Assembly: GCF_907164915.1 (NCBI RefSeq)
Contig: NC_061869.1
Location: forward strand, 22,917,125 to 22,981,124
Source: Impatiens glandulifera
Lineage: Eukaryota; Streptophyta; Magnoliopsida; Ericales; Balsaminaceae
Length of the DNA stretch: 64,000 bases
Direction: 5' to 3'
Below the pieces are notes generated by a model. That model saw nothing but the letters and a program-made list of their open reading frames with translations, was not told the origin of the DNA and searched no databases. Position numbers and translations under genes: made by a program. Positions 1 to 42,605 of the stretch are shown here, in pieces; position 1 is the first letter of the stretch; the number at the start of each line of letters is the position of its first letter.

Positions 1-489
1 CAGTATAAAATGGCCGCATATAAGAGATCTAGTGAAATGGTAAGAAAAATGTGCAGTTACAAAAGACATCCTACCTGCATGTTTGGTCTAGGTTACAAAA
101 ACAATAGATCCCAAAGCCAAAAACACTTAGACATAGTAAGGCTCACAAAGAATGATCTTCCCTTTATAAGTTTCATTAGAAGTTCCTTAACCGCTGAAGA
201 GGAATTGACCGCCTATTATACGGAAGACAAATTAACTTACGTAGGTCCAACTGATTCTGAGAAATGGCTTCACCCTGAGAAAAGGAAAGCCAACCTGTTC
301 AATAAAAGAAAAGTCGACTCACAACCGCATAGGACAAACTAAAGATCATCCCCATACAGGGCCTTCCTAGGAAAACAGAAAGACTCAAAACATAGTGCAA
401 GAAAAGTAGTTAAGACATTGACCACGATAGCTGTCCGGTTTGTCAAAATCTGGATACCCAAGGGACTAATCGCATGTGGACCCAAGTAA
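1..489 (+). pseudogene. Element A gag C-terminal region, partial
   Basis: The reading frame through position 10 matches the C-terminal third of the gag ORF of element B (about 29545-30015), including the spacer ending in GLIACGPK. An in-frame TAA at 340-342 interrupts it. The frame then continues to a second TAA at 487-489, at exactly the place where element B gag stops (30013-30015). The N-terminal nucleocapsid part is outside the window. In relatives this tail joins gag to protease/integrase without a stop, so the shared TAA is notable. No function remains likely for this copy. Confidence 0.8.
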
Positions 490-3400
490 ATGTGGGTACC
501 AAATAGTTGTAAATATGTACATTTTGCAGGATTTAAAGAAACGGCTAGGTAACTCTGAATGGTACTTGGATAGTGGTTGCTCTTGGCATATGACCGGGAA
601 CAACAATCTTTTAACCGACATCAGAATAGAAACCGGTGCACTAATCACCTTCGGTGACAACTCAAAAGGTAGAACTGTGGGCAAGAGTAAGATTGTCCAT
701 GGTAACCTTACAATTGATAATGTACTCTTAGTTGAAAACCTACGTTTTAACTTACTAAGCATTAGTCAAATGTGTGATGCTAGATACACGGTAGAATTTC
801 TTAAACATGCATGCCTAGTTAAGAACTCTCAAGGTACCATACTACTAACCGGAAATAGGTTAGGAAATATCTACAAGGTAGACTGGAAAACTAAAGTAGA
901 ATATCCTATTTGCATGATAGCCAAGACTGACCAAACCTGGCTGTGGCATAAGAGACTAAACCATCTGAACATGAAAACCTTAAATTATATTCGCGGTAAA
1001 AAGTTAGTCGACGGAATTCCTGACATAGTATTTAATAAGGATAAGGTTTGTTCAGCATGTCAAATGGGTAAACAAACTAAGTCAACATTTAAGAGTAAAG
1101 GACACATTCAATCTAACCGATGCTTAGATCTTCTTCACATGGATTTATTTGGACCGATTTAGGTCATCAGCCTAGGAGGTATGCTTTACACTATGGTAGT
1201 TATTGATGATTACTCTAGATATACATGGATAATATTTCTACCATCCAAACGTGAAAGCGCATCAAATTTGATCACACTGCTTAAACGTTTGCAAAATGAA
1301 AAATCAACACGCATTAATAGCATTAGAAGTGATAGAGGTACCGAATTTACCAACAGTACTTTAACCGCATTTCTTGATGAATCCGGTATTAGACACGAGT
1401 TGTCTAGTGCTAGGACTCCTCAACAAAACGGCCTGGCCGAGAGAAGAAACCAAACTCTCAAGGAAGCCGCACGGTCCATGATAGCCGACTCGGGTATTGC
1501 TCAGAAATTTTAGGCTGAGGCTATCAATACTACATGTTATACACAAAACCGGTCTTTAATTAACAAGTTTCATAACAAAACACCTTATGAGGTATATTTT
1601 GATAGAGTTCTCAACCTCAAGTATCTTAAGATTTTCGGTTGTAAATGTTATATTCACATAAATGGTAAAACCTACCTATCTGCTTTTGATGCAAAAACCG
1701 ATACTGGGATCATGTTAGGTTACTCGGTAGTGAGTAAAGCATATAGAGTGTATAACAATAGAACCTTAACCGTGGAGGAATCACTTCATGTTGTTTTCGA
1801 TGAATCGGTTGAAAGTAATACTGCATCATGCTTTGATCTACACAACAGACTGGAAAATAACAATATCCATTCTGATAGTGAAGATGAGATTCCGGTTTTC
1901 AGACGGTTTGTCCATGACCAAATGGGTAATGATGAAACCCAGCCGGATCAAGCTGTCCCACGACAGGAAGCTGACACTTCAGTCCAAACCGAGGAAATCG
2001 GTCGGTCTGACATCCTTGCTCAGCCTACCGATATGTCTAGCCTTGATCAAGTAAACTGTAATTCGGTAGACATCCCTGAACCGAACCTCAAAAGGAACAC
2101 TAAGCATCCTCCTGAGCTAATTATAGGTGACCCTTCAGAACCTGTTCGAACTAGGCGTCAAATTCTTGAGGAATACTTCAATTCCGCCTTTATATCCCAG
2201 ATTGAGCCGAAAAGAGTGGATGAAGCATTGTCAGATCCGGATTGGATCTTGGGAATGCAAGAAGAGTTAAACCAGTTCGAGAGTAATAAAGTCTGATACC
2301 TAGTCCCTAGACCGAAAGATCAACCGGTCATAGGAACAAGATGGGTATTTAGAAATAAACTCAATGAAGACGGTTTGGTCACGAGGAACAAAGCCAAATT
2401 AGTGGCACAAGGTTACAAACAGGAAGAAGGCATTGATTTTAAAGAATCATTTGCCCCTGTAGCTAGGATTGAGGCTATTAGGATTTTTCTAGCTTTTGCT
2501 GCCTTCAAAAATTTTAAGGTTTTCCAAATGGATGTTAAAAGTGCATTTTTGAATGGTGACCTACGTGAAGAGGTATATGTTGAACAACCACCCGGTTTCA
2601 AAAATGCTGAACTACCCAACCATGTATACCGGTTAAACAAAGCTTTATACGGTCTAAAGCAAGCTCTTAGAGCATGGTATGACACACTAACCGCATTTTT
2701 GTTAAAACATGACTTCACCATCAGATCGGTGGATAAAACGTTATTTAAGTTTGAGAAAAAGGAACATATCCTACTTGTTCAAATCTATGTAGATGATATC
2801 ATCTTCGGTTCAACCGATCCTAAGCTATGTGATAAATTCTCAACCCTGATGACTAACAAATTTGAAATGAGTATGATGGGAGAATTAAGTTTCTTCCTAG
2901 GTCTTCAGGTTAAACAACTCGAAGAAGGAACATTCATTAGTCAACCCAAGTACACTAAGGAACTGTTAAAGAAATTTGGGATGGATACATGCTCCTCAGC
3001 GGCTACTCCAATGAGTTCATCGGTCAAATTGGACAAAGATGATGAGGGTCAAGCAGTAGACCTGACCGCTTACCGAGGCATCATCGGCTCTCTTCTATAC
3101 TTGACAGCAAGTAGACCGAATATTCTATTTGCAGTCGGTGTGTGTGGAAGATTCCAGGCCAACCCAAAATAGTCTCACTACACAACCGCAAAGCGAATCT
3201 TGAAATACCTAAAGGGAACACCTGACGTTGGCTTGTGGTATCCAAAGGACTCATCTTTTAACCTAACAAGTTATTCAGATGCAGATTATGCAGGTTGCAA
3301 GGTTGATAGAAAAAGCACCAGCGGATAATGCCAATTCCTAGGTGATCGGCTTGTTTCATGGCACAACAAGAAACAAACATCAGTTGCCACATCAACCGCA

Positions 3401-3730
3401 GAAGCTGAATACCTGGCAGCCGGAAGCTGCTGTTCACAACTTCTTTGGATCCAACAACAACTGAAGGACTTCGGTGTCATAGCCGAAGAATCCCCAATCT
3501 TCTGTGACAACACAAGTGCCATAACAATCACCTACAAACCGGTTTTACACTCTAGAACAAAGCACATTGACATAAGACACCACTTCATTCGGGAACACGT
3601 CATGTTGAAGCATATCCGGCTGGAATACGTATCGACAGATCAACAAGTAGCCAATATCTTTACAAAGCCCCTGCAGGAAGCTAAGTTTTCTCAATTTAGA
3701 CTCACACTCGGTTTAACCGACATTAGTTAG
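490..3730 (+). pseudogene. Element A pol: protease-end, integrase, reverse transcriptase and RNase H, broken
   Basis: From the ATG after the gag stop the frame matches copia pol. Seen in order: the aspartic protease-like motif around LDSGCSWHM (about 568-594); the integrase HHCC region (about 950-1075, CSACQMGK); the integrase core with the D-D-E residues in VIDDYSR, RSDRGTEF and NGLAERRN (1200-1445); reverse transcriptase with the catalytic YVDD at about 2786-2797; and RNase H with SDADYAGC to the final TAG at 3728-3730. A one-base insertion near 520 and stops at 1160-1162, 1511-1513, 2294-2296, about 3170 and about 3327 break it. Most stops fit G-to-A or C-to-T changes of Trp or Gln codons seen in element B. 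This copy cannot make active Pol without repair. Confidence 0.9.
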
Positions 3731-4264
3731 ATCATTCCTAAGGATGCTTAAAAAGGGAAATCGGTTCGGACAGACAAAACCGGTAGTTCCTCCTAAATTG
3801 TAGGATTCCAAATTTCCTAAGGTATCTATGGAAGAACCGCCTGGTCTATCAGTCAAAGTAAACCGACCGGTTACTTAGTGCATGCACCAAATAACCGCAT
3901 CGGGACAAACAACTGATAACTGACCGGTTCGAAAATAGTTTATCTTAGATTATTTGGCCTTCGAACAAAAGTGGAATAATTACCTGCGTTTAAACTTATC
4001 TGTCCTGAAAAATTACCTTTTCAAAGTAAAATGGTTACACCTCAAAAGACGTGAAAATTTGATATCTTTCATGGTCCAGGTCTATGACCAACATCCTAGG
4101 TTGTAGACATACTTATTTCATGCAAAACTCTTTATCCTATGGTTAATAGACATTATTACATGTGACGCATTGGATAATAAGATCCTCTCTCCACTAGTAT
4201 ATAAGTTAAGCAAACCTTAAACAAAACAATCACAAGATATAACTTATTCTCTCACTAGGACAAA
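3731..4264 (+). promoter_or_regulatory. Spacer after pol with TATA box of accessory ORF1 (4198-4205)
   Basis: There is no coding match between the RNase H stop and the next ATG. TATATAAG lies at 4198-4205, 67 bp before the ATG at 4265, followed by a CA-rich leader. Element B has the equivalent TATATAAC at 33724-33731, 68 bp before its ATG. The conserved distance between two diverged copies supports a real promoter. Transcription itself is not shown. Confidence 0.6.
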
Positions 4265-5026
4265 ATGTCTCAGTTTCCAAACATCCTTGAAGTGGACTTC
4301 AAATCTGCTCTAAGTACTGAACACTACGATGTCTTCAAGATGATCAAGTCGCTTGAAGACACTGGTCTCCAACACTTTCTAGATGACAAACATGTCATCT
4401 ATTCTGAATCTGTCCTGGAGTTCTTCTACAATGCCAGGGTTTTTCGTGGAACTCCTCAATTTGACACACATATTCAGTCAAAAGTGGGAGGAATCGTATT
4501 CGACTTTACCAAAAATGACTTTGCAAGATGCTTTGACCTACCAAAGCAAGGGCTGACCGACCTTAATGTACCGGCTGAACTAAAAGCCGAGATCTCCTTA
4601 GCCTTTGCCCGGTCAAATCAGCCAGTTGATGACCACGGTGCCAAGTCACTGTTGAAAGCTGAATACCAGCTTCTCAACGACGTGATCGGTCGAGGCATCA
4701 TGGGAAGGGATGTGACCAACACGTACTGCACCGCTGCCTTCAACATTATGGCCGCTATAACCACTGGCACACCGGTCAACTGGTCAAGGGTGCTGTTCGA
4801 CGTCCTAATCTGGATGATTGGCGTTCGAACAGTAGGTCTTGTTCCTCAACTAAGTTGTCTGCTTCTAGAGCTTGGGGTTCCAACATGTCTGGACGAAGGG
4901 TTGAACCAAGCCCAGGTACTCACTAAGGAAGTCACCGATTCATTTTATGAGCGGTTTGAAAAGGCTTGGAAGAGGAGGAACCGTCACATCCACTCCAACG
5001 GTCACGCCAACTCCAGCGGATATTAA
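4265..5026 (+). CDS. Element A accessory ORF1 (253 aa)
   Basis: This uninterrupted 253-residue ORF starts MSQFPNILEVDF. It has no transmembrane segment or signal peptide that I can see. It aligns with the ORF at 33792-34535 in element B, and more distantly with ORF2 and ORF3 of the same element. Shared landmarks are a V-D-F start, a LEDTGLQHFL-like segment near residue 40, an EFF-N/T-A segment near 60, an F-ARCFDLP-K-G segment near 100, an LLND segment near 140 and a VNWSRVLFD segment near 180. The pattern resembles the plant domain called putative transposon protein (recalled as Pfam PF20167, not checked). It occupies the position of the Sirevirus envelope-like gene but does not look like an envelope protein. 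Function is unknown. Confidence 0.75.
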   Translation: MSQFPNILEVDFKSALSTEHYDVFKMIKSLEDTGLQHFLDDKHVIYSESVLEFFYNARVFRGTPQFDTHIQSKVGGIVFDFTKNDFARCFDLPKQGLTDLNVPAELKAEISLAFARSNQPVDDHGAKSLLKAEYQLLNDVIGRGIMGRDVTNTYCTAAFNIMAAITTGTPVNWSRVLFDVLIWMIGVRTVGLVPQLSCLLLELGVPTCLDEGLNQAQVLTKEVTDSFYERFEKAWKRRNRHIHSNGHANSSGY

Positions 5027-5467
5027 GTCACTCCCTCTTACAACCGGTCATTTTGCTGCACGAACCGGTTGTATCTTTGTTCAACTATCTTATGCTTATT
5101 TCGGCTTGGCTTATGTTATCTTCGGTTTCAATCGGTTACTTTTATTATAACATCCGTCATTAATGAAAAGTAACGTTCAATTAATGAAGTAACTCCCAAC
5201 TACCTGAGTAATTACTATCCAACTAACGTGGTTACTTTTCAACTAGATTCCTACCTCGAGCTCCATAGCCGGTCAAAAGTAACCCCTTCCCAATGCGTTT
5301 TGGAAACATAAATATTCTCTTCCTTAATAAGACAAAACTGATCTTCAACATTAAATAATGATATTTTCCCTCCAAAACCGGATCTATATAAGGAGCCACC
5401 CCCTAATCAACTTAACACATCTCAAAACAAAGTTTCTTGAACTCTCTCTCTTAGCAAAGTTTGAATC
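5027..5467 (+). promoter_or_regulatory. ORF1-ORF2 spacer with TATA box (5385-5392)
   Basis: No coding sequence is supported here. TATATAAG lies at 5385-5392, 83 bp before the ORF2 ATG, with a CT-rich leader (CTCTCTCTC near 5446). Element B has TATATAAG at 34871-34878, 92 bp before its ORF2 ATG. Several short repeats of a TAATGAAAAGTAAC type occur around 5160-5240 in both elements. Confidence 0.6.
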
Positions 5468-6169
5468 ATGCCGAGCCGAACTCTAGGCAACTTCCTAAGC
5501 GTCGATTTCGATTCCTGTATGGAACATTGGGATCTGGAAACCAAAGAACTCATGTTTGAATCTCTCATCGACACCGGTCTTCGTACTTTTCTCGAAGAAT
5601 CCGGTCCCATACTCCTTGAGGATGTCAAGACCTTCTTCAGAAGTGCTTGCATAAGAGGAAACTACATTGTTTCCACGGTGAGAGATCACACCTTCTGGCT
5701 GGATGAAGCCGAGTTTGCTCAAATGTTCAACCTACCCACAGAAGGGTTTTCTGACTTTCCAACACGGATGGGAAGCGACGCAACCGACTACTCGGAAATG
5801 TTCTCTGAAACCGATGTATCGGTGGAGAACTACGGGTTAAAAACCCGCCTTGCTCACCACATCCAACTCCTCCATGGGATTGTTAACCGATCTATCATAT
5901 GTCAATCTCCGAACCAGCGCTACTCTAAGAAAATATTTGACATGATGACCTACATCGTTAGCAATACGCCTATCAATTGGTCATCGGTCATCTTCCAAAA
6001 TCTGAAAACCATGGTGCTGACCAAGAAAGGTCTCGGTTATGCTCCTCACATCAGTCGGCTCATTCTCAAGTACCGTCTAGAATTTGGACCGGGCACACCG
6101 GCATCTCCTTCGAACATTCTTGATATGGATGGGGTGGAAGAAAAACTTTCTAGGGTAGTTATTACATAA
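5468..6169 (+). CDS. Element A accessory ORF2 (233 aa)
   Basis: This uninterrupted 233-residue ORF starts MPSRTLGNFLSVDF. It shares the layout of ORF1: a VDFDS start, a LIDTGLRTFLEE segment near residue 38, an F-LP-T-EG-F segment near 90, a charged middle, a long helix around IQLLHGIVNRSI near 137, and TPINWSSVIF near 172, followed by a GYAPHISRLIL segment. It ends with a short acidic tail. Element B carries the same ORF intact at 34963-35664, so both copies keep it open while pol is broken. No catalytic motif is recognised. Like ORF1 and ORF3 it belongs to the group that resembles the putative plant transposon protein domain. Function is unknown. Confidence 0.75.
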   Translation: MPSRTLGNFLSVDFDSCMEHWDLETKELMFESLIDTGLRTFLEESGPILLEDVKTFFRSACIRGNYIVSTVRDHTFWLDEAEFAQMFNLPTEGFSDFPTRMGSDATDYSEMFSETDVSVENYGLKTRLAHHIQLLHGIVNRSIICQSPNQRYSKKIFDMMTYIVSNTPINWSSVIFQNLKTMVLTKKGLGYAPHISRLILKYRLEFGPGTPASPSNILDMDGVEEKLSRVVIT

Positions 6170-6747
6170 GTTGTATCTTTCTATCTTATGTATGTCTATT
6201 TTTACACCGATCTACTTTTCGGTTTCTATCCTGTACTGTTCCTTCAATAAAAATCTATTTCAGTTTAATAACCGGGTCAAAAACTGCAAAATCGGAACAA
6301 CCATCCAACTAACCGGTCAATACCAATAAATCACTCTGTCTTCACTGAAAAATCTGGTTAAAGTCATAAACCGCATCCTCGCGGTTAATAGATCACATCT
6401 CTTCATAAACGGATTTGAAAAGAGACCGCTTCATTAAAACTGAAATCAAAAGTTCACTCGAAATTTTTGGAGGGAAATTTCCCGCCCAAAAAATCCCGCT
6501 CAAACATCCCGCCTTGATTTACCGCCTTTTTGTTTGCCGCCCTAGGTTTGCCGCCCAATCCACTTGGAGGGAAAATTCCCGCCTAAAGGTGATGGGACGG
6601 TTTGCGGCGGTTGGGTTTCCAAACCGCACCTATAAAAAGGGTCCTTAGCCATTTCATTTCATTCTTACGCGAAACGAGTTTCTCTCTCTAGCTCTCAAAC
6701 TCTCTCAAAGCGGCTTTTCTCTTGCTCTCTCGATTCAATCATCAACA
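6170..6747 (+). promoter_or_regulatory. ORF2-ORF3 spacer with TATA box (6631-6638)
   Basis: The spacer is rich in CCGC and ACCGG motifs (6470-6610). TATAAAAA lies at 6631-6638, 117 bp before the ORF3 ATG, with a CT-rich leader. Element B has TATAAATA at 36060-36067, also exactly 117 bp before its ORF3 ATG. The core promoter and leader are among the best conserved noncoding segments between the two elements. Confidence 0.65.
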
Positions 6748-9376
6748 ATGGGTCGTGATTCCGCATTGTTCAAACATATCATCCAGGTAGACTTTGAAGA
6801 AATCAGACAAAACAGTTCGGCTCCGGCAAAGCAAGTTCTTTCCCGGATTTCCGAGGCCGGTCTCGAATACTTCCTAGGTGGTCCGTTTGTTCTATACAAA
6901 GAAGCGGTTGAAGAGTTCTTTAAAACCGCATCTCTCTCCGGCAGAACAATAACTGCAACCGTCGGCGGTCAACAGTTCGACATAACCGAAGAGTCGGTTG
7001 CAGAAATCCTACGCCTACCAACAGATGGACGCAACATTTCGATGGATCTAGACCGAGAAACCTTCGAGGCGGCTTGCCAGGTTCTCTCGGCAACCGCGGT
7101 TCCTGTAGAAGTCTCCGGAAAGAAATCAACACTGCGACCGGAATACATACCGCTTTGTGACATCTTCACCAAGTCGGTTCAGGCGAGAGGGGGAAATTTC
7201 GACAACCTCACAAAGGCAAAAATCGAGATGCTTGTCGGTTTACTAAACGGCATAAATATTAACTGGGCAAAGGAGGTTTTCAACAACCTAAAAGAAATGG
7301 TGAAACCGAATTCCACCCGGTCATGGGGATACGCCATCCCACTCGGGAAGATCATGCTCCACCACAACATCAACACCGGTAACTGGTGTTCTTCTTTCGT
7401 CAAGCAAAATAATAAGATCCCGCCAATTCCTGGAAAAGAAGAAGCCGGCCCCCGGTTCTACAGGTGGCCGAAGGAAGAAGTCTGATGCTAAGAAACCTGC
7501 TCCGGTAAAGAGCAGATCCGGAAGCAAGAAGGATAAACAACCGATAAAATTCGCGGACCCGCCCTCTAAAACGCGAGATGAGGACGATTCGGCCTTCAGC
7601 TCAGACCAAACTGCTTCAGATAATACCGAAGAAAATCTGTCTGGTAAAGAACAAGGACCGATAGAAGAGGAACAATCGGCCAGTCTTGAACTTGAAGATA
7701 CCGGTGCAGACGACCCTGGGGAGGAAGACGTTCATGTTAACAACGACCAGGAGGTGGCCGAGAATATAGTACGCAGAATCCTAGAGGAAATCGATCTGCA
7801 AGCTCATGAGGCATCTGAAGTATACTGTGAGTGGTTCCGGTACCGGTGCGACAAATTCTTCAAACATATGCTACCGGGCCTAACCACCGGACAAAGATTC
7901 GAAAGGTTGATGGAGATAGAGGAGGACGTCATCAACCTAACAAAAGCCAAGGATCCCAGCGAAGCCTTGGACCGACACGCAATAGTGGAACCGCGTGCTT
8001 GGCTACAAAAGCTAGCCGAACATATTCGAAAACTTACAGAAAGGTATGTTGCGGGAACACCGAAGTCTAAACTACAACTCCTGGTGTTGGAGTTACTTGC
8101 GGTAAAGAAAGGGGAGTTCATCGACGAAGTGGCGCGGCTTGAAGCGGTGCGCAAACAGCAAGATACAACGCACTCTCCAACTCTTGAGACCGGTGATGGT
8201 CAGAACCCAGGCGATAAGTCTCCTCTAGCGGATCAGGCTATCAACGAAACCGACGAAAGGTTAGAGCCTCCTCTCACCGATAATCTTGAATCTGATCAAG
8301 TCTGGGATTCAAAACCGGCCGTCACAAAAGAAAGAGTCAGGTCTCTCATTCAAGAGTTTGTCAACGACGCGGTTAAGCCCTGGAAGAAGAAAGCTAAGAG
8401 GGTCGCGGTTCAAGCATTCAGGATGGCCGAAACAACAAGGGATGATCTTGGGAAGGCGAACGAGCGGATCACGTCGGTCGAAACCAACTACCGTGACGCC
8501 GATTCACTGTACGACGCTCATCTTAACCGTACCATAGCCTTGGAAGATACGACTTCAAAGTTGGTGGATGACTTGGAACGGTTTCAAGAGAAGACCGAGT
8601 AACAGATTACAAAGGTCGATGAGGACTTGGGGCGGTCAAGTACCCAAGTCGGTTCGACACTCGACAGGGTCACAAATCTTGAAGAGAAGAATGTAAGTCT
8701 TGAGGAAAGGAACACCAAGCTTCAGGCCGACCTCAAGGCGGTCACCGAACAGGTGAATGAACTGATACAAGCCAAGCTGGCTGCCGATAAAGCGGTTGAG
8801 GAGGCAAACGCTCAGGCGGCTAAGGAACTTCAAGATGCGCTGGACGAAGAGACGCGGAAGAAGAAGGAGGCACCACGATTGTCTGATGTGGAATTGGCCG
8901 AACGCGTACGAAATGTATCGACCAGAAATCCGACACTTGCAAAGGACATAGCAGCTCAAGAGGCCAAGGATGCAGAGCGGTTCAACGCTGAAAAACAAAG
9001 GTACGACGAATATGCCAAGGCTCACAAGAAGACCAAGGTGGCTCCCTCTTCTTCGGTTCCGGCAACACGAAAGAGGAAAGTTCCCTCAAGGAGGGCTCAA
9101 GTCACCGAGATGCTGGGCAGAATCACCGAGACAGTTGTTGATCCTCCACTAAACCCGGCTTTGCAAACTGAGGATGACTTCGAAGAGGATCTCGAGCCGT
9201 CACCCACAAGACAACGAGTTTTCAATGCGGTTCCAGTCAGCACGGTCGCTCAATCGTTAACTCCTCACCCGGACACCACGGGAGCTGAAGGTCCCTCTTC
9301 AAGGCCGGCTCAATAGGCTAAGAGACAACCAACAGATGACCTGATGAAAAACTTCCTGCCATCCAGATTGAACTAG
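6748..9376 (+). pseudogene. Element A accessory ORF3: domain plus long coiled-coil tail, frameshifted
   Basis: The N-terminal part (6748 to about 7380) repeats the ORF1/ORF2 domain: IIQVDFEEI start, LEYFLGGPFVLY near residue 37, LRLPTDG near 88, ININWAKEVF near 170, then SWGYAIPLGKIM. Around 7400-7490 the frame shifts relative to element B. The tail continues in the other frame through an acidic Ser/Thr-rich stretch, a helical region (7754-8602), a TAA at 8600-8602, and a coiled coil rich in Glu, Lys and Ala (8627-9000). A basic cluster TRKRKVPSRR follows near 9070, then a further stop at 9314-9316 and a final short motif ending at 9376. An unbroken version would be near 870 residues. The basic cluster could be a nuclear localisation signal. 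No enzyme motif is recognised. Confidence 0.7.
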
Positions 9377-9733
9377 GGCTTTCTTTTCTATCTTCACTTA
9401 TGTTTATTTTGGTTTCTACATATATAATATTTTACCCTTTTGCGGTTATTTTTACTTATATATATATATATAGTTATTTTTGGAAAACCGGCCTACATTT
9501 ATATTCTGACTTGATTTTGAATATTTTAATTAAAATAATCAAAAAGGGAGAAATTGATAAGATAAAAGATATAATTTCTCAAAATTTTTCTCAAAATTTT
9601 CCAAAATTTTTCAAATAATCCTCCCAAGTTAGTTTCCAAAAATCCGGCCAAATAAAACTCACAAAACCGGCCTACATTTGCAATCTTACAGGATTTTGAA
9701 TATTTTAAATAAAATAATCAAAAAGGGAGAAAT
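9377..9733 (+). repeat. Element A 3' untranslated region with two polypurine tracts
   Basis: A segment with ACCGGCCTACATTT, a TTTTGAATATTTTAA stretch, AATAATC and then AAAAAGGGAGAAA occurs twice. The first tract is at 9541-9553 and the second at 9720-9732, the latter directly before the LTR start TGTTAG at 9734. Plus-strand DNA synthesis in retroelements is primed at this tract; tandem copies are known from Sireviruses. Confidence 0.75.
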
Positions 9734-10951
9734 TGTTAGATAAAATTAGTCCGGTTAATAGAATTTAACACAAACAAATCTCCTATGCAGGAACAAACAA
9801 AGAACCGGACTGGTCAAAGTACTCAACTAGATTAAGAAGCTCCACCGGTCAAGTTATCAAACCGACCAGAAACATGACCGCACAAAAAAAGACAGGATCG
9901 GTCAAAACTGAAGGCCGGAAACACCAGATAGTCGGTCATCTAGAAGCCAAAGGAATAACCGGAAGCCATCCGGTTAACACAAATAACCGACCAGCATAAG
10001 AAGATACTCCGGGTATCTGTTGAGAATGATACCAAAGGAACAGACTGAACATTGCCATATCCATACAAGTCTGAGGACAGTCTGCAAGCTACAGAAGACA
10101 GTCCTACAAGATCTTTCTACTTCAGGATAAATCAGAAAGACAATCTCCCAAGTACAGACAACTGTCTGACCGACAGTTACCACATTGAGTAAAAGACAAA
10201 CCTAGTCGGTTTGACCTACATACTGGAAGAACAGACCGCCAGGTCTGAAAAGTTGACCGTCAGGTCTGAATCACTGAACCTCTGCTCAACCAATCAAATT
10301 CAAGGAAGTGAAATATGACCGTTGGCACATTTCACCTATAAAAGGAGGAGCTGAAGAGGAGTAAATGTGGGACACAGTGGACAATTAATTTACAAGTGAT
10401 AAGATTGTGTTCTATCTCTAGAAAGCTTAAGTGCTAAGTTGAAGTGTGTATTTACAATTTCGGTTAAAATTGTACGGGTGTTATCGAGCAGGAAATAAGT
10501 CTCGATCGGATTGTGTTTGTATTCCTTAGTGAATATCCTTCTCGCAGTTTCGAGAGGAAGGGGTGACGTAGGAGTTTTATCTCCGAACATCCATAAAAAA
10601 CTGTCTTGTTATTTACTTTCTGCCGGTTCTATATTCTAACCGATCTGTTCTAACCCACTTACACCGCCTTGACCAACTCTACATTACCTAAACCGAATTA
10701 CTAAATTCCAAAACCGACCCAACAATCTCCAAACCGTCTTATCCAAAACCGGTCATGCCTATTTCGTGAGTGTGCTTCTTCAACCTGAAACAAACCTCTT
10801 CCGCGCTTGAACCTGGTTCAAAGGTTTGTGACAGTTTGTGTAGTATTGAAACCCCGGTGTTAATCTCTAACCGGATTAATCACCACCCTTTGAGTGAGAC
10901 GCGCTAACCGGCCCAGACCCCGGTCCCCCAGTCGCGACCTAGATCCTAACA
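9734..10951 (+). repeat. Element A 3' LTR (1218 bp)
   Basis: It begins TGTTAGATAAAATTAG and ends GACCTAGATCCTAACA, the same termini as both LTRs of element B. TATAAAAG lies at 10337-10344, giving a likely U3/R boundary about 30 bp later. The U3 part is dense in ACCGG motifs. It clearly differs from the B LTRs at many positions, so A and B are separate, older and younger insertions of one family. Confidence 0.9.
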
Positions 10952-15949: not shown

Positions 15950-16747
15950 CTATAAATCAGAAGTTAATAGCACGAGATTTTCACCTTTTCGCTTGCTTGC
16001 AACCGTGATGTTGGTGGGTGCGGGAGCCATCTCTTTGGAGACAACATTCTGATTCCCTAAACACTGCATATTTCCAAATTCACAATTACCAAATCCTTGT
16101 TCATTTAAATCTGTAACTTCTGTACTTTGTCCTTCTCCTCCATCTGGGTGAAGGCAATAAAGCTGATCATCACATTGCTGCAGATTATTACATGGATTCA
16201 TAACATAAGCAGCAGAAGGATTGTTCTGTCCAGAAGCATTTCCAGACTTCTGATAAGGAAAAGATCCAATCTCTCCCTCAATCCTTCCTCGAATATCCAC
16301 GAGCAGACATTTAAGCCTAGCAACTTCAGCTTCTAACGCTGCCTGACCCTGTAACCTTTTCAGCAACTGCTGATTCAAACCTCTCAGTCTTACGACTTCA
16401 TCCTCCAACGATGCAGCACGAGCCTTCTTCTTCTCACGATACTTCCGTACTGCTTCGCGATTACCCAGAGGCCTTTTCTTAGACTTCTTTTCGTCGGATT
16501 CTCCAGTATCGTCAGATCCATTCTTCTCCTCAACTGCTGCGGGGAGAATTTTAGTGTGAACGTGAAAACAAGTGTGGGAATGCGATAAATCAGGACCAGG
16601 AGGGTTGCAAGTGTGAGTATGGGTACAAGCATGAGTGTCCTTGAGAATGTCATCAAAGAAACTATCCATAGAGCAGCTACTTGGTAGATCCCCAATAGAG
16701 TTTGTAAACATTTCTTGGTTTGAGAAATCAAGTTCACCATCATCCAT
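15950..16747 (-). CDS. BZIP19: Group-F bZIP transcription factor of the zinc-deficiency response (265 aa)
   Basis: The frame is open from 16780, but the ATG at 16745-16747 gives the start MDDGELDF typical of the family; the upstream 11 residues are probably leader. A Cys/His-rich segment at residues 39-64 (HACTHTHTC, then HSHTCFHVH) is the zinc-sensor motif of bZIP19/bZIP23. It is followed by an acidic Lys-rich linker, a basic region (about 87-110, with NREAVRKYR) and a leucine zipper from about 114. Known role: when zinc is low these factors bind ZDRE palindromes and switch on ZIP transporters and nicotianamine synthase; zinc binding to the sensor blocks this. The coding part is one exon. 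bZIP19 and bZIP23 cannot be told apart here, and the symbol is for the class. Confidence 0.92.
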   Translation of the reverse strand: MDDGELDFSNQEMFTNSIGDLPSSCSMDSFFDDILKDTHACTHTHTCNPPGPDLSHSHTCFHVHTKILPAAVEEKNGSDDTGESDEKKSKKRPLGNREAVRKYREKKKARAASLEDEVVRLRGLNQQLLKRLQGQAALEAEVARLKCLLVDIRGRIEGEIGSFPYQKSGNASGQNNPSAAYVMNPCNNLQQCDDQLYCLHPDGGEGQSTEVTDLNEQGFGNCEFGNMQCLGNQNVVSKEMAPAPTNITVASKRKGENLVLLTSDL

Positions 16748-17330: not shown

Positions 17331-17730
17331 TTTTAATATTCACCATCGCCGTTTCTACTGTCAATTCATTTTTAAACACAATTTGCTCCAACTATTATTT
17401 CTTATGTATAAAGATTTGATACAAATGAGAGGTTTTATTAAAAAAAATAAAATAGAAATATGACATAGTTATAATTTTTTAATTTTTTAAATTTAATTCA
17501 TTATTTGCTTATCTAATTATTAAAAAATCGAACAAAACTAATGGGGTAAACGGTTAGGTTTGGTCGATTTATTGATCGAAATATAGATCTAAATCGCTAA
17601 CGTCGGTTTATTATATTTCAAATTGTTGTTTTGTCGGTTTTCTCGGTTCAGTTTGAATGGTTAGAAGACTGGTTTAATCGATTTGATGCATTGACAATTT
17701 TATTAAAATAAATTAAATATAAATATAAAT

Positions 17731-19162: not shown

Positions 19163-19215
19163 AGTGATATCAAAGCAATATTTTCTATTCTTAAGCTACT
19201 GCAGATATCTGAATC

Positions 19216-21405: not shown

Positions 21406-21458
21406 AGTGATATCAAAGCAATATTTTCTATTCTTAAGCTACTGCAGATATCTGAATC

Positions 21459-27051: not shown

Positions 27052-28206
27052 TGTTAGATAAAATTAGATCGGCTAAATAGAACTTAACAAAAACAAATCT
27101 CTTGTGCAGGAACAGTCAAGTTACTCAACCGGTCAAGCAATCCAACCGAACAAAAACCTGACCGAACAAGAAGACAAGACCGGCCAAATTAGAAGGCCAA
27201 AATCATTGAACATTCGGCCAATCTGAAGTTATGGAAAAACCGGAAGTCATCCGGTTAACATAAACAACCGACCAGTACAAATAGATACTTCGAGTATCTG
27301 TTGAGAATGATACCGAATGGACAGACTTTAGTATTGCCATATTCATACAAGTCTGAAGACAGTATGCAGGATGTAGAAGATCGTCCGACAAGATCTTTCC
27401 ACTCTAGGATAAATCAGAGGCGCAATCCTCCAGGTACAGGCAACTGTCCAACCGACAGTTGCCATATTGAGTAAAAGACAAACCTAGCCGGTTTGACCTA
27501 CACACTGGAAGCCTAGATCGTCAGGTCTGAATCACTGAACCTCTGCTCAACCAATCAGATTCAAGGAAATGAAATGTGACCGTATGCACATTTCACCTAT
27601 AAAAGAAGGAGTTCAAGAGGAATAAATGCAACACCAGAAACAAGTCAAAAACGTTTACCAGTCTTACCAACTACAAGCTCTAAGATTTATTGCAAGTTTA
27701 TTTCTCTATAAGGCTTAGAGCTGAAGTGTTTATTTGAAGAGTGATTACAATTTCGGTTAAAATTGTACGAGTGTTATCGAGCAGAAAATAAGTCTCGATC
27801 GGATTGTGTTTGTGTATTCCTTAGTGAATATCCTTCTCGCGGTTTCGAGAGGAAGGGGTGACGTAGGAGTTTATCTCCGAACATCCATAAAATTCTGCCT
27901 TGCTATTTACTTTCTGTCGGTCTTGTGCTCTAACCGACTCTACCTAAACCGACTTACTGAATCCTAAAACCGACCCAGCAATCCCAAACCGACCTCATCT
28001 AAATCCGGTTCTGTCCGTCCAGTGTGTGTGCTGCTTCAACCTAAAACAAACCACTTCCGCGCTTGAACTCGGTTCAAGGGTTTGTGACAGTTTGTGTAGT
28101 ATTGAAACCCCGGTGTTAATCTCTAACTGGATTAATCACCAACTTTTGAGTGAGACGCGCTAACCGGCCAGACCCCGGTTCCCCATCCGCGACCTAGATC
28201 CTAACA
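27052..28206 (+). repeat. Element B 5' LTR (1155 bp)
   Basis: TATAAAAG lies at 27598-27605, followed by the likely transcription start. There is a single copy of the CAAGTTACTCAACCGGT unit near 27117, where the 3' LTR has three. U5 ends with the GACCCCGGTT and GACCTAGATCCTAACA segment. Confidence 0.95.
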
Positions 28207-33267: not shown

Positions 33268-33791
33268 AAATGTCTAAAAGGGAAAATCGGTTCGGACAGA
33301 CAAAACCGGTAGTTCTTCCTAAATTGTCGGATTCCAAATTCACCAAGGTACCTATTGAAGAACCGCTTTGTCTATCAGTTAGAGTAAACCGACCAGTTAC
33401 TTAGTGCATGCACCAATTAACCGCATCGGAACGAATGAATGAAAACCGACCGGTTTGGAAATAATGTACTCCGGATTATTTTGCTTTCGAACAAAAGTGG
33501 AATAATTATCTGTGTTTAGACTTATCTGCTCTGAAAAGATTCCTTTTCAAAGAAAAATGGTCATACCTCAAAAGACGTGAAGATATGATATCTTTCACCG
33601 TCCAAGCCTATGACTCACATTCTAGGTTGTAGACATGCTTATTTCATGCAATTTGTTTTATCCTATAGTCAATAGAATACATCAACGGTCACCCACTGGA
33701 TAATACTATCATCCCTCTACTAATATATAACTTAGGCAAATATCAGACAAAATGTTCACAAGTATCAACTTATCCTCTCACTAAGACAAAA
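33268..33791 (+). promoter_or_regulatory. Element B spacer with TATA box of ORF1 (33724-33731)
   Basis: Aligned with 3731-4264 of element A. TATATAAC lies 68 bp before the ORF1 ATG. No coding match. Confidence 0.6.
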
Positions 33792-34535
33792 ATGTCTCAG
33801 TTTCCAAACATTCTTCAAGTTGATTTCGATTCAGCTCAAAGTACAGAGCACTATGAAATCTTCAAAATGATTAAGTCACTTGAAGATACCGGTCTAAAAT
33901 CCTTCCTAGATGATAAACATGTCATCTTTCCAGAAACCGTCCTAGAGTTCTTTTATAACGCCAGGGTTTTCCGTGGTACCCCTCATTTCGACACTCTAAT
34001 TCAATCCAGGGTCGGAGGGACCGTGTTTGATTTTTCGGAAAGTGACTTCGCAAGATGCTTCGATCTTCCGAAGCAAGGGATCACTGATCTGAACGTCCCG
34101 GACGGACTAAAAGCCAAAATCTCCTTGAGCTTCTCTCGGTCAAACCATCCGGTCAGTGACCACGGTGCTAGGTCATCATTGAGAGCTGAATACCAGCTTC
34201 TCAATGATATCATCGGTCGTGGCATCCTAGGTAAGGATGTGACCAACACCTAATGTGCTACAACTTTCAATATGATGACCGCTATCACAACAGATACGCC
34301 GATCAGCTGGGGCAGGGTGTTATTCGATGTCCTAATCTGGATTATCAGCATCCGCCAAACCGGACTTATCCCTCAGGTCAGCTGCCAACTCATGGAACTC
34401 GGTGTTCCACTTTGTTCGGGTGAAGGACTGAATCAGGCCCAGGTCATAACCAAGGAAGTTGCCGACTCATTCTATGAGCGGTTCGAGAAGGCATGGAAGA
34501 GGAAGAACCGACACCTCAACTCCTCCGGCAATTAA
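33792..34535 (+). pseudogene. Element B accessory ORF1, one stop codon
   Basis: It matches the 253-residue ORF1 of element A nearly end to end (MSQFPNILQVDF start, SFYERFEKAWKRKNRH end). A single TAA at 34251-34253 replaces the TAC tyrosine codon of A, after about 153 residues. Everything else is in frame. Domain and unknown function as for the copy in A. Confidence 0.8.
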
Positions 34536-34962
34536 GTCATTCCTTCCTACAACCGGTCATTTTGCTGCACGAACCGACTGTATCGCTATAATCATTTCGG
34601 CTTAGACTACGTTTCTTTTCGGTTTCAACTATGTCCCTTTCGGCTTCCTGTATTTCTCTCTCATTAATGAAAAGTAACTTTCAACTTCCAACTACATGGG
34701 AAATTACACAAACTTAGTTATTTTCTAACTAGATTCTCCACCTCGAGCTCCACAACGGTCAAAAGTAACTCCTTCCTAAGGAGTTTTGGAAACATAAATA
34801 TTCCCTTCATAAATGAGACAAAACTGAATTTCAGCATTAAATGCCCCTATTTTCTCTCCAATCTCAGATCTATATAAGAAACCCAATCTTATCACTTCAA
34901 CATACCTCTAAACAAATTAAAATCCTTTGAACTCTCTCTCTCTCTCGGCAAAATCTGAAAAC
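34536..34962 (+). promoter_or_regulatory. Element B ORF1-ORF2 spacer with TATA box (34871-34878)
   Basis: TATATAAG lies 92 bp before the ORF2 ATG, followed by a CT-rich leader with CTCTCTCTCTCTCTC near 34932. It is aligned with 5027-5467 in A. Confidence 0.6.
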
Positions 34963-35664
34963 ATGTCGAACCGAACACTAAGAAACTATCTGAGCATTGA
35001 TTTCGACTCAGTCCTTCAATTTGATGATCTGGAAACGAAGGAACTTCTCTTCGAGTCCCTCATCGACACCGGCCTTCGTGATTTTCTCGAAGAATCCGGA
35101 CTTATGCTCATTCTAGAAGTACTGGAATTCTTCAACAATGCATCCATGAGTGGCGATCTCATTGTTTCCATGGTGAAAAGGCGCACCGTTTTTCTGAACG
35201 AGAGCGCATTCGCTCAAATGTTTAATCTGCCCACTGAAGGGTTTTCCGATTTCCCATCCTGGGTAGGTAGTGCAGCAGATGACTATGCGCAATTATTCTC
35301 CGGAACCGAAGTATCGGTGGAGAACCACGGTCTGAAGACCCGCCTTGCCCATCACATCCAACTCCTTCACGAGATTGTCAACCGATCCATCATCTGTCAA
35401 TCTCCGAATCGACACTACTCTAGGAGAGTCTTCGACATGATGACCTACATCGTAAGCAACACCCCCATAAATTGGTCATCGGTAATCTTCAAAATCCTGA
35501 GGACTATGGTCGAGACTAAGAGAGGTCTCGGCTACGCCCCCCACATAAGCCGGCTCATTCTTGCACATAGTCCAGATTTTGGACCGGGTACACTAGCGAA
35601 CCTATCAAATGTTCTCGATGAGGAAGGGGTGGAAGACAGGCTTTCTAGAATAGTTATTACATAA
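34963..35664 (+). CDS. Element B accessory ORF2 (233 aa, open)
   Basis: The start at 34963 (MSNRTLRNYLSIDFDS) corresponds to the start in element A; the frame is open 12 codons further up (ATG at 34927), but that stretch is leader sequence in A. It is the same length as in A and uninterrupted. It has the domain landmarks LIDTGLRDFLEE, AQMFNLPTEGFSDF, IQLLHEIVNRSI, TPINWSSVIF and GYAPHISRLIL. Keeping this ORF open in both copies while pol is broken hints at recent constraint or simply youth. Function is unknown. Confidence 0.78.
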   Translation: MSNRTLRNYLSIDFDSVLQFDDLETKELLFESLIDTGLRDFLEESGLMLILEVLEFFNNASMSGDLIVSMVKRRTVFLNESAFAQMFNLPTEGFSDFPSWVGSAADDYAQLFSGTEVSVENHGLKTRLAHHIQLLHEIVNRSIICQSPNRHYSRRVFDMMTYIVSNTPINWSSVIFKILRTMVETKRGLGYAPHISRLILAHSPDFGPGTLANLSNVLDEEGVEDRLSRIVIT

Positions 35665-36176
35665 GTTATAATTCTGTATCTTGTGTATTCTAAACCGATC
35701 AATGTATCGGTTTCTATCATGTTCCTTTTCTTCAAATGATTATCTGAATTTCTAAGCTTGAAAAACCGGGTCAAAAATCGCGCTATTAGAATATTTATCT
35801 AAATGACTAACCGGCTAAAAACGCTAACTACCTCGCTGAAAAACCGGTCAAAATCGCAAACTGCTTGATTATCGGTTACATAACCGACTCACTTAATAAG
35901 CGGTTAAAGAACAACCGCTTCATCGCCGGTTAAATAACCGCATCAAAAGCCCGCTCAAAGTTTCTCGCCCATCACTTGCCGCCCAAAGCATTTTGGAGGG
36001 AAAATTCCCGCCCAATCCTGATGTGACGGTTCGCGGCGGTTGAAATTCCAACCCGCAACTATAAATAGGATCCTTAGCCATTTTCTTTCATTCTCACGCG
36101 AATCGACTTTCTCTCTCTAGTTCTCAAACCTCTCAAAACTTTCAATCCTTCGATCTCTCGATTTATTCAAACTACA
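35665..36176 (+). promoter_or_regulatory. Element B ORF2-ORF3 spacer with TATA box (36060-36067)
   Basis: TATAAATA lies exactly 117 bp before the ORF3 ATG, as in element A. Upstream is rich in ACCGG and CGGTTA motifs (35760-35940). Confidence 0.65.
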
Positions 36177-38831
36177 ATGGGTCGCGAATCTGTGCTGTTC
36201 AACCACATCGTCCAAGTCGACTTCGATGAAGTTCGAGCGAATGGTTCGGCGGAGGCAAAGCGGGTGTTAACCCAGATCTCCGAGTCCGGTCTCGAACATT
36301 TCTTGACTGGGCCATTCGTCTTATATCAGGATGCGGTCAACGAATTCTTTCAAACCGCCATCCTCACCGAAGGGACAATCATCGCAACTATATGCGGACA
36401 ACCGCTCAAACTGACGAAGGAGTCGGTTGCTGAAGTATTGCATCTACCAACCGAGGGGAGCGACTTCTCGGTGGTCACAAACGAGGAAACTTTCCAGGCG
36501 GCTTGTCGGGATCTTTCGGATACGAAGGTTCCTATCGCGGTATCCGGTAAGAAAACCTCACTTAAACCGGAGTTTAGGCCACTATTCGATATTTTCACCA
36601 AATCGATTCAAGCGCGAGGAGGCAACTATGATAGCCTCACCCGAATAAAAATCGAGATGATTGCCGGTTTGGTCAACGACATCAAAATCAACTGGGCGAA
36701 GGTGGTTTTCACAAACCTATGTGAGATGGTGGATCCGACATCCAAACGGTCATGGGGATACGCCATCCCACTCGGTAAACTGATGCGTCACTTCAACATT
36801 AACCGGCCCCGGTTTTTCCTCGCCCCCAACAAAGTTATAAAATCCCATCAATTCATTAAACCAGAGGACAAGCAAGGCAAAAAGAAGGCCTCCGGTTCTA
36901 CAAGCGGCCGAAAGAAGAAACAGACTAAAAAGAAAACGACTCCGGTCAAAGAAAAACCCGGAAGCAAGAGTGATAAGCAACCAACTGGATCGGCTAATCC
37001 GCAGTCCGACACCCTCAACACTGAAAATTCGGCATCCAGCTCTGGCCGAACCGCTTCACAACACACCGGAGAAGATCAGACCGGCAAAAGGAAAGGACCA
37101 ATGGTCGAAGACCAATCGGTCCGACATGATGATGTTGATGCCGGCTCTAACAGACTACAGGAGGAAGATGAATCCACGGATGAACACATCCGGCAAACGG
37201 CCGAGGATCTCGTCAACAGGATCATGGAAGAGATTCATGAGCAGGCTCACGCGGCAACCAACGTCTACTATCAATGGGCCCTGAACCGACATGAAATATT
37301 CTACATCAACATGCTACCGGATCTCACAGTTGACCGGAAATTCGAGAAGCTGGTTGAGATGGAGGCGGAGGTAGTCAACCTCACAAAGGCTCAGAGTGTC
37401 ATGACCGCCCTACGACGAAGTAGGATGGTCGAACCGCATGCTCGGTTACTGGGGCTCAACGAACACATCTGACGTCTCCAAGGAAAGCATATCCCAGGGA
37501 CAGCGGACTCTCAACTTGAGCTCTTGGTGTTGGACGTGCTAGCGGTTAAGGAAAGGGAACTGACCGAGGAGATGTCATAGCTTGAAGCGGAGCCCGAGCA
37601 CCAGAAGACGTCGAACTTCTCCAAATCCCCACCTGAGGATGATGGCGGTCCGAATCCGACCGAAAATGAGCATTTCTCTCCTCCACCGGAACAGGAAATC
37701 AACAGCACCGAACTCAGGACGGGTACACCGCCCACCGACCAGCGAGTCTCTGTTCAAACCGGGGATTCGGTACCGGCTATAACGGAAGATAGGGTAAAGA
37801 ACCTCATCTAGGAATTTGTCAATACCGCGATTCGGCCGTGGCAAAAGAAGATCAAAGAAATCGCGACTACATCCATCGAGATGATTGAGTCGACAAACAA
37901 AGAGCTAAAAAATGCGGTCGACCGGATCACGTCCGTTGAAGACAATTACGGCATGACCGATCAGTTGTACATCGGCTATATTGACAGAACTAAGACATTG
38001 GAGGAGGCAACTAAGAAGCTGGTGACCGACCTCGCTCTTGCCAGCCAAAAGGTCGGTATGACGGAACAATCCCAAGTAACAACCGATCAAAGGCTGAAGA
38101 AGGTTGATGAGGATCTGGCTCAATCCAGTGCCCAAGCCGGCTCTACACTTGAGAGGGTGGTAATGCTTGAGGAAAAGCATGTCAAGACTGAAGCTGAACT
38201 AAAGGCGGTCACAGAACATGTGGCGGAGTTGATAGCGGCAAAACTAGCAGCCGACAAAGTACTCGAGGAGGCAAATGCGCTCGCGGACCAGAAGCTTCAG
38301 GATGCTTTGGACGAGCAAAACTGACTTCAAAAGGTAATGGCGGAGGCAGATGCGAACCTGGACGGACGACTACAGACATTAGAAAACATGGGACCGGCCA
38401 TAGCGGTTCAGCAAAATGAAGATGCGGCTCGTCTAATCAGTCAACAGACTGCATACAATGATTTCGCCGAGGCTCATCACAAGTCCAAAGAGGTTGCTCC
38501 CCCATCCGGTCCGACTACAAGAAAGAGAAAGAATTCTTCTAAGAGGGCAGAGGTTTCAAAGTTATTGGACAGAGTTACTGACACGGTTATCAACCCTCCA
38601 AGCAACCCAGTTTTGCAGGAAAATGTAGATCTCGAGGACGATGGCGTACCGCTGACCAAAAGACCGCGAGGTCTTGACGTAGCTCCAATCAGATCATTTG
38701 CTCCACCGGCTTCTCCTTTCACCGGCACTTCAGGCGGTCAAGGATCCTCATCCAGGCCGATTCCAGCGGTCAAGGGAAAAGCAACTAATGAACAGCTGGA
38801 AAAATTCTTGCCGCCCAGATCGAAGAAATAG
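36177..38831 (+). pseudogene. Element B accessory ORF3: domain plus coiled-coil tail, four stops
   Basis: The first 431 codons are open (36177-37472). They hold the domain (IVQVDFDEV start, LEHFLTGPFVLY, LHLPTEG, KINWAKVVF, SWGYAIPLGKLM) followed by a Lys/Ser-rich stretch (KKKASGSTSGRKKKQTKKK) and an acidic linker. Stops at 37470-37472, 37578-37580, about 37808-37810 and 38322-38324 interrupt the tail. The tail has a coiled coil at 37881-38324, a basic TRKRKNSSKRAE near 38520 and a last motif ending SRPIP...PRSKK at 38831. The first stop is a CGA-to-TGA change. The whole would be about 884 codons. The likely nuclear signals and coiled coils suggest a scaffold or nucleic-acid-associated protein; that is inference. 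Confidence 0.72.
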
Positions 38832-39187: not shown

Positions 39188-40375
39188 TGTTAGATAAAAT
39201 TAGATCGGTTAAATAGAACTTAACAAAAACAAATCTCTTGTGTAGGAACAGTCAAGTTACTAACCGGTCAAGTTACTCAACCGGTCAAGTTACTCAACCG
39301 GTCAAGCAATTCAACCGAACAAAAACCTGACCGAACAAGAAGACAAGACCGGTCAAATCAGAAGGCCAAAATCATTGAACATTCGGCCAATCTGAAGTTA
39401 TGGAAAAACCGGAAGTCATCCGGTTAACATAAACAACCGACCAGTACAAATAGATACTTCGAGTATCTGTTGAGGATGATACCGAAGGGACAGACTTTAG
39501 TATTGCCATATTCATACAAGTCTGAAGACAGTATGCAGGATGCAGAAGATCGTCCGACAAGATCTTTCCACTCCAGGATAAATCAGAGGCGCAATCCTCC
39601 AGGTACAGGCAACTGTCCAACCGACAATTGCCATATTGAGTAAAAGACAAACCTATCCGGTTTGACCTACACACTGGAAGCCTAGACCGTCAGGTCTGAA
39701 TCACTGAACCTCTGCTCAACCAATCAGATTCAAGGAAATGAAATGTGACCGTTGACACATTTCACCTATAAAAGAAGGAGCTCAAGAGGAATAAATGCAA
39801 CACCAGAAACAAGTTAAAAACGTTTACCAGTCTTACCAACTACAAGCTCTAAGATTTATTGCAAGTTTATTTCTCTACAAGGCTTAGACCTGAAGTGTTT
39901 ATATAAAGAGTGATTACAATTTCGGTTAAAATTGTACGAGTGTTATCGAGCAGAAAATAAGTCTCGATCGGATTGTGTTTGTGTATTCCTTAGTGAATAT
40001 CCTTCTCGCGGTTTCGAGAGGAAGGGGTGACGTAGGAGTTTATCTCCGAACATCCATAAAATTCTGCCTTGCTATTTACTTTCTTTCGGTCTTGTGCTCT
40101 AACCGACTCTACCTAAACCGACTTACTGAATCCCAAAACCGACCCAGCAATCCCAAACCGACCTCATCTAAATCTGGTTCTGTCCGTCCAGTGTGTGTGC
40201 TGCTTTAACCTGAAACAAACCACTTCCGCGCTTGAACTCGGTTCAAGGGTTTGTGACAGTTTGTGTAGTATTAAAACCCCGGTGTTAATCTCTAACCGGA
40301 TTAATCACCAACTTTTGAGTGAGACGCGCTAACCGGCCAGACCCTGGTTCCCCATCCGCGACCTAGATCCTAACA
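39188..40375 (+). repeat. Element B 3' LTR (1188 bp)
   Basis: It is nearly identical to the 5' LTR. It is 33 bp longer, mostly because a CAAGTTACTCAACCGGT unit is present three times at about 39250-39305 instead of once. TATAAAAG lies at 39767-39774. Confidence 0.95.
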
Positions 40376-42604: not shown

Positions 42605-42605
42605 T

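Follow-up and report, generated by a model that had tools for sequence, protein, structure and literature searches.

How the envelope-like (env-like) genes of Sireviruses, a group of Ty1/copia long terminal repeat (LTR) retrotransposons, are expressed has been at issue since an internal promoter was proposed for them (Peterson-Burch and Voytas, 2002, according to PMC2829016). The authors of PMC2829016 state that an internal env promoter could not be conclusively identified. An earlier note on the DNA described here named readthrough or splicing as the presumed mode of expression of such genes; that account is incomplete, an internal promoter having been proposed already in 2002 (PMC2829016). 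In SIRE elements, additional sense open reading frames (ORFs) are reported for 74 %; they fall into 19 groups that resemble one another little or not at all (PMC6317226). The present analysis concerns a 64-kb stretch of contig NC_061869.1 (the window) from the 654-Mb genome of Impatiens glandulifera, which holds two related retrotransposons: element A, with about its 3′ four fifths inside the window and its 5′ end before the window start, and element B, a complete, diverged relative at 27052-40375. In both, three sense ORFs sit between pol and the 3′ LTR. The best explanation of the spacers before these ORFs is likely to be a TATA-type RNA polymerase II internal promoter in front of each of the three accessory genes.

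Internal promoters are already known in reverse-transcribing elements. In maize Grande, gene23 is transcribed from its own antisense promoter and, like the genes described here, lies between pol and the 3′ LTR, but Grande is a Ty3/gypsy element with one antisense gene (PMC7264820), whereas the family here has three sense genes on an RVT_2 copia backbone. The Caulimovirus 19S promoter, from another plant reverse-transcribing element, is also an internal sense RNA polymerase II promoter with a TATA; it occupies the spacer ahead of a downstream ORF and yields a monocistronic subgenomic RNA (PMC5902531); it differs in being a single promoter in a pararetrovirus, and no homology is claimed. Foamy viruses, also LTR elements, likewise have a second sense promoter for accessory genes that lie towards the 3′ end, but only one, located at the 3′ end of env and controlled by Tas (PMC3798896). 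In Ty1, an internal sense promoter within a Ty1/copia element gives Ty1i RNA, but it lies about 800 bp past the main promoter and its product is a truncated Gag, not an accessory gene (PMC8585004). No LTR retrotransposon with several sense internal promoters was found in the literature searched, which had most subscription journals outside its reach; an LTR element with three sense promoters appears to be new, although internal promoters as such are not.

TATA boxes in the accessory-gene spacers

Elements A and B are Ty1/copia LTR retrotransposons, based on their LTRs, target-site duplication (TSD; TAGAC on both sides of B), copia-type gag and pol, and integrase-side domains before the reverse transcriptase (RT). 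Pfam matches are RVT_2 and Retrotran_gag_2 in B, and gag_pre-integrs and SH3_retrovirus before the RT frame in A; the RT sequence common to the two is 94 % identical over 300 nt. The accessory ORFs and TATA boxes are as follows.

Element A, 4198..4204 (+): TATA box 1 (TATATAA); 40/40 copies, 0 tree changes
Element A, 4265..5026 (+): accessory ORF1, 253 amino acids, weak Transposase_32 (PF20167) similarity
Element A, 5385..5391 (+): TATA box 2 (TATATAA); 39/39 assessable copies, 0 tree changes
Element A, 5468..6169 (+): accessory ORF2, 233 amino acids, paralogue of ORF1 (33 % amino acid identity)
Element A, 6631..6637 (+): TATA box 3 (TATAAAA); 36/37 assessable copies
Element A, 6748..7485 (+): accessory ORF3, N-terminal Transposase_32-like domain
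Element B, 33724..33730 (+): TATA box 1 (TATATAA)
Element B, 33792..34535 (+): accessory ORF1, in-frame stop at 34251-34253
Element B, 34871..34877 (+): TATA box 2 (TATATAA)
Element B, 34963..35664 (+): accessory ORF2
Element B, 36060..36066 (+): TATA box 3 (TATAAAT)
Element B, 36177..37472 (+): accessory ORF3

The spacers before ORF1, ORF2, and ORF3 are 534, 441, and 578 nt long, ORF1 starting 534 nt past the pol stop. All six TATA positions, and TATA-to-ATG distances of 67, 83, and 117 bp in A and 68, 92, and 117 bp in B, are exactly as the earlier note had claimed; measured across further copies, these distances are 56-69, 81-93, and 102-126 bp. Within 3730-7000 and 33261-36300, the six boxes are the only TATAWAW sequences on the plus strand. 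In bases 1-9316, element A has four on the plus strand (the three boxes and one at base 4) and none on the minus strand, with more at 9421, 9457, and 9465 in the A/T-rich end of its linker before the 3′ LTR; outside its spacers, B has others at 29590 and 36836 and TATATAT runs near 38877-38920. When each spacer was shuffled preserving dinucleotides, the probability of a TATAWAW 40-130 bp before the ATG was 0.095, 0.073, and 0.035 (product 2.4e-4). These probabilities are much weaker evidence than the conservation seen in 40 other copies.

The 40 further copies, from the same genome, were chosen by their ORF1 protein and not by promoter, and represent 40 of the 149 listed places besides A; the first 20 were spread over the ranks and the other 20 came mostly from the lowest ranks. 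Rows without a homologous flank were dropped (L039 for promoter 2; L011, L022, and L039 for promoter 3). TATA1 is intact in all 40 copies, TATA2 in all 39 that are assessable, and TATA3 in 36 out of 37, the one loss (L035) being through deletion. Changes were counted on a 39-sequence tree made from ORF1 and ORF2 coding sequence only, with L011, L022, and L039 left out. TATA1 and TATA2 show 0 steps per column and TATA3 shows 0.71, its changes being A/T exchanges that preserve TATAWAW. On the same tree, the distal parts of spacers 1, 2, and 3 show 2.33, 1.95, and 3.04 steps per column and the proximal 130 bp 1.65, 1.77, and 3.07, with 0.92 and 1.21 for codon positions 1+2 of ORF1 and ORF2. The spacers as a whole seem constrained, because the fourfold-degenerate sites of ORF1 and ORF2 (3.50 and 3.84 steps) exceed every spacer class (1.65-3.07). 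The comparison with other family members that the earlier note had proposed therefore finds the TATA boxes kept, and more conserved than the spacers around them.

When 7-bp windows were ranked, with gapped windows penalised, those with no more steps than the TATA window numbered 1 out of 528, 7 out of 435, and 13 out of 514 for spacers 1-3, TATA1 being the sole zero-change window among the 528 in spacer 1. A/T positions change less than C/G positions here, therefore A/T columns alone were taken as a control. These average 2.03 steps per column against 0.24 for TATA, where the 21 columns total 5 changes; none of 200,000 random draws of 21 A/T columns reached 5, the lowest draw being 7. Of the 7-mers in the three spacers, 35 consist of A/T only; three of these took no step, and TATA1 and TATA2 are two of the three. 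Based on the low number of steps relative to the spacers and on the A/T-only control, the boxes are therefore under selection in the clade of A. The LTR's own TATA (CTATAAAAG) served as a yardstick: 10 of the 12 3′ LTR loci fetched have it, and the remaining two offered no stretch of use for the comparison (L049 no match at all; L053 a match of 28 nt that lacks the TATA). The internal boxes behave in the same way.

Leaders, spacer motifs and encoded proteins

From 25 bp past the TATA to the start codon, 1, 0, and 0 ATGs were found in 858, 1,218, and 1,774 nt of leader in the first 20 copies (19 for promoter 3), against 1.97, 1.77, and 0.77 per 100 nt of spacer upstream of TATA1, TATA2, and TATA3. 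The larger set has 2 ATGs in 40 leaders 1, 0 in 39 leaders 2, and 1 in 26 leaders 3, the count for promoter 3 being limited to 26 copies by leaders that are cut off or deleted in the rest. The start codon is kept in 36/40 copies for ORF1, 39/39 for ORF2, and 22/26 for ORF3. The lack of ATGs in the leaders of A carries little weight by itself, since shuffling these leaders gives 69 %, 54 %, and 41 % of sequences without one; it is the persistence across copies that tells. Leaders nearly free of ATG fit messenger RNAs that would start near the TATA and be scanned to the ORF.

A start-dinucleotide rule is uninformative, at no more than chance level by estimate, and in A the CA dinucleotides at +30 to +32, as candidate starts, are not significant. 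Poly(A) signals were rejected as proof of separate 3′ ends, with AATAAA present after ORF1 in 0/40 copies and after ORF2 in 20/39; looser variants are present in 40/40 and 38/39.

Identity between A and B is concentrated in islands near two of the boxes. One at 5250-5349, 36-135 bp before TATA2, is 82-86 % identical, with 60-70 % in the preceding spacer; the other, at 6550-6699 around TATA3, is 82-88 % identical, with 14-59 % in the preceding spacer. Two upstream features of element A stand out.

5364..5376 (+): conserved block TTTTCCCTCCAAA, with its end 8 bp upstream of TATA2; promoter-3 motif in inverted form
6465..6584 (+): upstream part of promoter 3, with two GGAGGGAAA and four TCCCGC motifs

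The conserved run CTTGGAGGGAAAA before TATA3 is the TTTTCCCTCCAAA motif in the opposite orientation. The window contains GGAGGGAAA or its complement four times, once in promoter 2 of A, twice in promoter 3 of A, and once in promoter 3 of B, and GGAGGGAAA is present in promoter 3 of 36/37 copies. TCCCGC, which we take to be an E2F-like core, is found in all 37 assessable promoter-3 copies (L009-L048; mean 4.7 per copy), clustered at 6400-6630 in A; it has 13 sites in the whole window, and spacer 3 of A has four against 0.14 in shuffles. Neither the LTR of B nor spacer 1 or 2 of either element contains it. This distribution of motifs suggests that the three genes may be under different control. 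Two other candidates were rejected. A repeated CGG-CCG motif, a Sirevirus feature of the LTR and of the region upstream of env, is not supported as a promoter signature, CGGT/ACCG motifs being common across the whole element and not clearly denser in the spacers, and derivation of the spacers from the LTR is not supported by the best spacer-LTR blastn match (E 0.59).

The three ORFs appear by sequence to be distant paralogues, with identities over approximately 200 residues of 33 % for ORF1/ORF2, 27 % for ORF1/ORF3, and 29 % for ORF2 of A against ORF3 of B. Weak matches to PF20167 (Transposase_32) were found in five of the six ORFs (E 3e-6 to 0.08, all under Pfam's cut-off; ORF1 of B as sequence up to its stop), and ORF2 of B was the one among the six without a match. 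No PDB relative was found up to E 1, the predicted structure of ORF1 is poor (mean predicted local distance difference test score, pLDDT, 52.8), and among the 73 stretches of viral_contigs that fitted a pattern there were 0 relatives. The pooled ratio of non-synonymous to synonymous change (dN/dS) against A, from the first 20 copies, is 0.11 for ORF1 (n=20; biased low, the copies having been picked by ORF1 protein), 0.13 for ORF2 (n=18), and 0.36 for the start of ORF3 (median 0.20, n=19), compared with 0.72 and 0.74 for mock reading frames in spacers 2 and 3; end-of-pol pairs were saturated. ORF1 and ORF2 are under clear purifying selection, and at least these two are therefore kept as proteins, their dN/dS being far below that of the mock frames. 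In A, open stretches continue in other frames up to 9316, which suggests a broken ORF3 gene in this copy. Element B is partly decayed, with the in-frame stop in its ORF1 and an ATG within the leader of that ORF.

Proposed promoters and alternative routes of expression

The proposed arrangement is a high-copy Ty1/copia (Sirevirus-like) family in which pol is followed, before the 3′ LTR, by three tandem, distantly paralogous accessory genes; the spacer preceding each gene would hold a TATA-type RNA polymerase II core promoter of its own. The usual distance from TATA to transcription start is about 30 bp. Transcription would begin approximately 30 bp past each TATA, and the resulting leader would be short and almost without ATGs, which would make the ORF behind it the first met by a scanning ribosome. 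The LTR promoter would make genomic RNA for gag-pol, and the accessory messenger RNAs would most likely run to the poly(A) site of the 3′ LTR as a nested set. Each accessory gene would probably have a separate messenger RNA. For the earlier claim of three messenger RNAs from internal promoters, the promoters are supported as the best explanation and by TATA conservation, whereas the three separate messenger RNAs are something that we infer. More tentatively, and with rather less confidence than an even chance, gene and promoter may have been duplicated together, turning one env-like gene into a three-gene module with its own regulated RNA polymerase II promoters and nested 3′-coterminal messenger RNAs, in which promoter 3 would be under E2F-like cell-cycle control and promoters 1 and 2 would respond to other signals.

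A number of observations weigh against internal promoters. All 40 copies are in the clade nearest A, with ORF1 protein 87-95 % identical to that of A, and B is the only distant copy in the comparison. Between A and B, the 50 bp holding TATA2 are 74 % identical, and spacer 1, which has no island, is mostly 82-94 % identical and falls to 66-72 % per 50 bp around TATA1. Promoter 2 of B has no GGAGGGAAA, and the motif is present in promoter 2 of 33/40 copies. In smaller tests with 22 sequences and less strict scoring, TATA1 kept its high rank and TATA2 and TATA3 fell back: equally conserved 8-bp windows numbered 1 out of 526, 111 out of 433, and 29 out of 570 for TATA1-3, the eighth base, after TATA2, varying G/A; counted by steps, 2/527, 14/434, and 54/571 windows did as well, in an alignment where L022 was misplaced at promoter 3. 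From +28 to +34, 40/40, 39/39, and 19/26 copies have a start-type dinucleotide, by estimate no more than expected by chance, and the proximal 130 bp of spacer 3 do not change more slowly than its distal part. The earlier claim that CT-rich leaders are kept holds in part, and the proposed comparison of leader and spacer rates gave a mixed result: leader 1 (1.45 vs 2.33 steps per column in the distal spacer) and the first 52 bp of leader 3 (2.40 vs 3.04) are slower, but leader 2 is faster (2.43 vs 1.95), the whole of leader 3 is not slower with 22 sequences (2.03 vs 1.87), and leader 1 is 46 % C+T.

The leaders also bear on splicing, in which subgenomic RNAs from the 5′ LTR would be joined to 3′ splice sites in the CT-rich leaders and the TATA boxes would be incidental or secondary. 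A pyrimidine tract and AG precede the ATG in 38/40, 37/39, and 25/26 copies, as splice acceptors would, and are thus almost as strongly kept as the TATA boxes; in A, the CT tract lies 51, 57, and 51 bp after TATA1-3 and the AG sites are at about 4258, 5454, and 6691. CT-rich leaders are common in plant promoters, and the tract with AG is ambiguous for this reason. In B, tract and AG are present for ORF1 and ORF3, but the AG is missing for ORF2. There are precedents, the env-like RNA of Bagy2 being spliced (PMC7264820) and acceptors having been predicted for Bagy2 and Athila (PMC2829016). However, splicing leaves unexplained both the invariance of the TATA boxes and the conserved islands approximately 80-135 bp upstream of TATA3 and TATA2, and B has only a single GTRAG between 27636 and the gag start, though gag itself contains donor-like sites at 29773 and 29837. 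Splicing as the sole route is therefore considered unlikely, and the design may be a mixed one, with promoters plus splicing.

That the boxes are ordinary A/T-rich spacer, kept through the youth and shared ancestry of the copies, would agree with the 87-95 % identity of all 40 copies to A. On the same tree, however, spacer columns took 1.65-3.07 steps and fourfold sites 3.5-3.8 while TATA1 and TATA2 took none, the A/T-only control was passed, and B keeps all three boxes though its spacers differ from those of A by 6-86 % per 50 bp. This explanation is very improbable, and chance A/T-rich sequence as the source of the boxes is refuted within the clade of A by the tree steps and the A/T-only control. 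Translation of the ORFs from genomic RNA, whether through readthrough, reinitiation, or internal ribosome entry and with the spacers acting as RNA elements, is just as improbable. Stop-codon suppression has been described for the SIRE1 env-like gene (as told in PMC2829016), but here 534 nt with approximately 2 ATGs per 100 nt separate the pol stop from ORF1, and there are three separate spacers to cross. RNA structure at the ORF1 start was rejected as a candidate, the RNA around it folding no better than shuffles (z 0.58).

Family placement, neighbouring features and implications

The ends of the two elements are defined by the following features.

Element A, 9541..9556 (+): upstream copy of polypurine-tract-like motif AAAAAGGGAGAAATTG
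Element A, 9720..9735 (+): second polypurine-tract-like motif, abutting the 3′ LTR
Element A, 9734..10951 (+): 3′ LTR; promoter-type TATA of the LTR (CCTATAAAAG) at 10337
Element B, 27052..28206 (+): 5′ LTR, TATA at 27598
Element B, 39188..40375 (+): 3′ LTR, 97.5 % identical to the 5′ LTR; TSD TAGAC

Identity between the two 3′ LTRs, that of A and that of B, is 82.6 %. The family resembles the Sireviruses (SIRE/Maximus) in being Ty1/copia with long LTRs and sense ORFs between pol and the 3′ LTR, and in having an LTR TATA and repeated polypurine tract (PPT)-like motifs near the 3′ LTR: AAAAAGGGAGAAATTG occurs twice before the 3′ LTR of A, so that the repetition of the PPT is as in Sireviruses and the sequence is not. 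The Sirevirus PPT octamer AGGGGGAG has no exact match in the window, and none within one mismatch beside the 3′ LTRs of A and B. The junction of the 5′ LTR and primer-binding site (PBS) of B at 28205-28220, right at the LTR end and the one copy compared, matches 13 out of 16 bases of the Sirevirus CA/ATTGG plus TATCAGAGC (motif from PMC2829016). Unlike Sirevirus env-like genes, there are three paralogous ORFs here with a conserved TATA before each, and the PPT octamer is non-canonical. The family is termed Sirevirus-like here, as a tentative placement.

A first look found 18,969 ORF1 candidates in the 654 Mb, the best 150 of which were scored; going by this number, the family may form a very large share of the genome. 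Elsewhere in the window, a near-canonical Sirevirus LTR/PBS junction (1 mismatch) at 42592-42607 (-) and five AGGGGGAA motifs at 46010-47375 possibly represent another, more typical Sirevirus relic. A tandem duplication at 17472-22000 (period approximately 2.24-2.28 kb, 92-95 % identity) contains LTR-end/PBS-like sequence at 19162 and 21405. ORFs with a bZIP domain at 15950-16780 (-), PPR-repeat domains at 51688-53358 (+), and Transpos_assoc/Transposase_21 domains at 60525-63071 (+) are probably ordinary genes and a DNA transposon.

If the proposed promoters are real, this would be, as far as the literature searched shows, the first case of three internal promoters in sense orientation in an LTR retrotransposon, and the first of an identified promoter for a Sirevirus-like env gene. 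Separate promoters would allow the accessory proteins to be regulated apart from gag-pol, as in foamy viruses and caulimoviruses. With three candidate promoters given base-pair coordinates in an abundant family, the question of env-like gene expression becomes directly testable.

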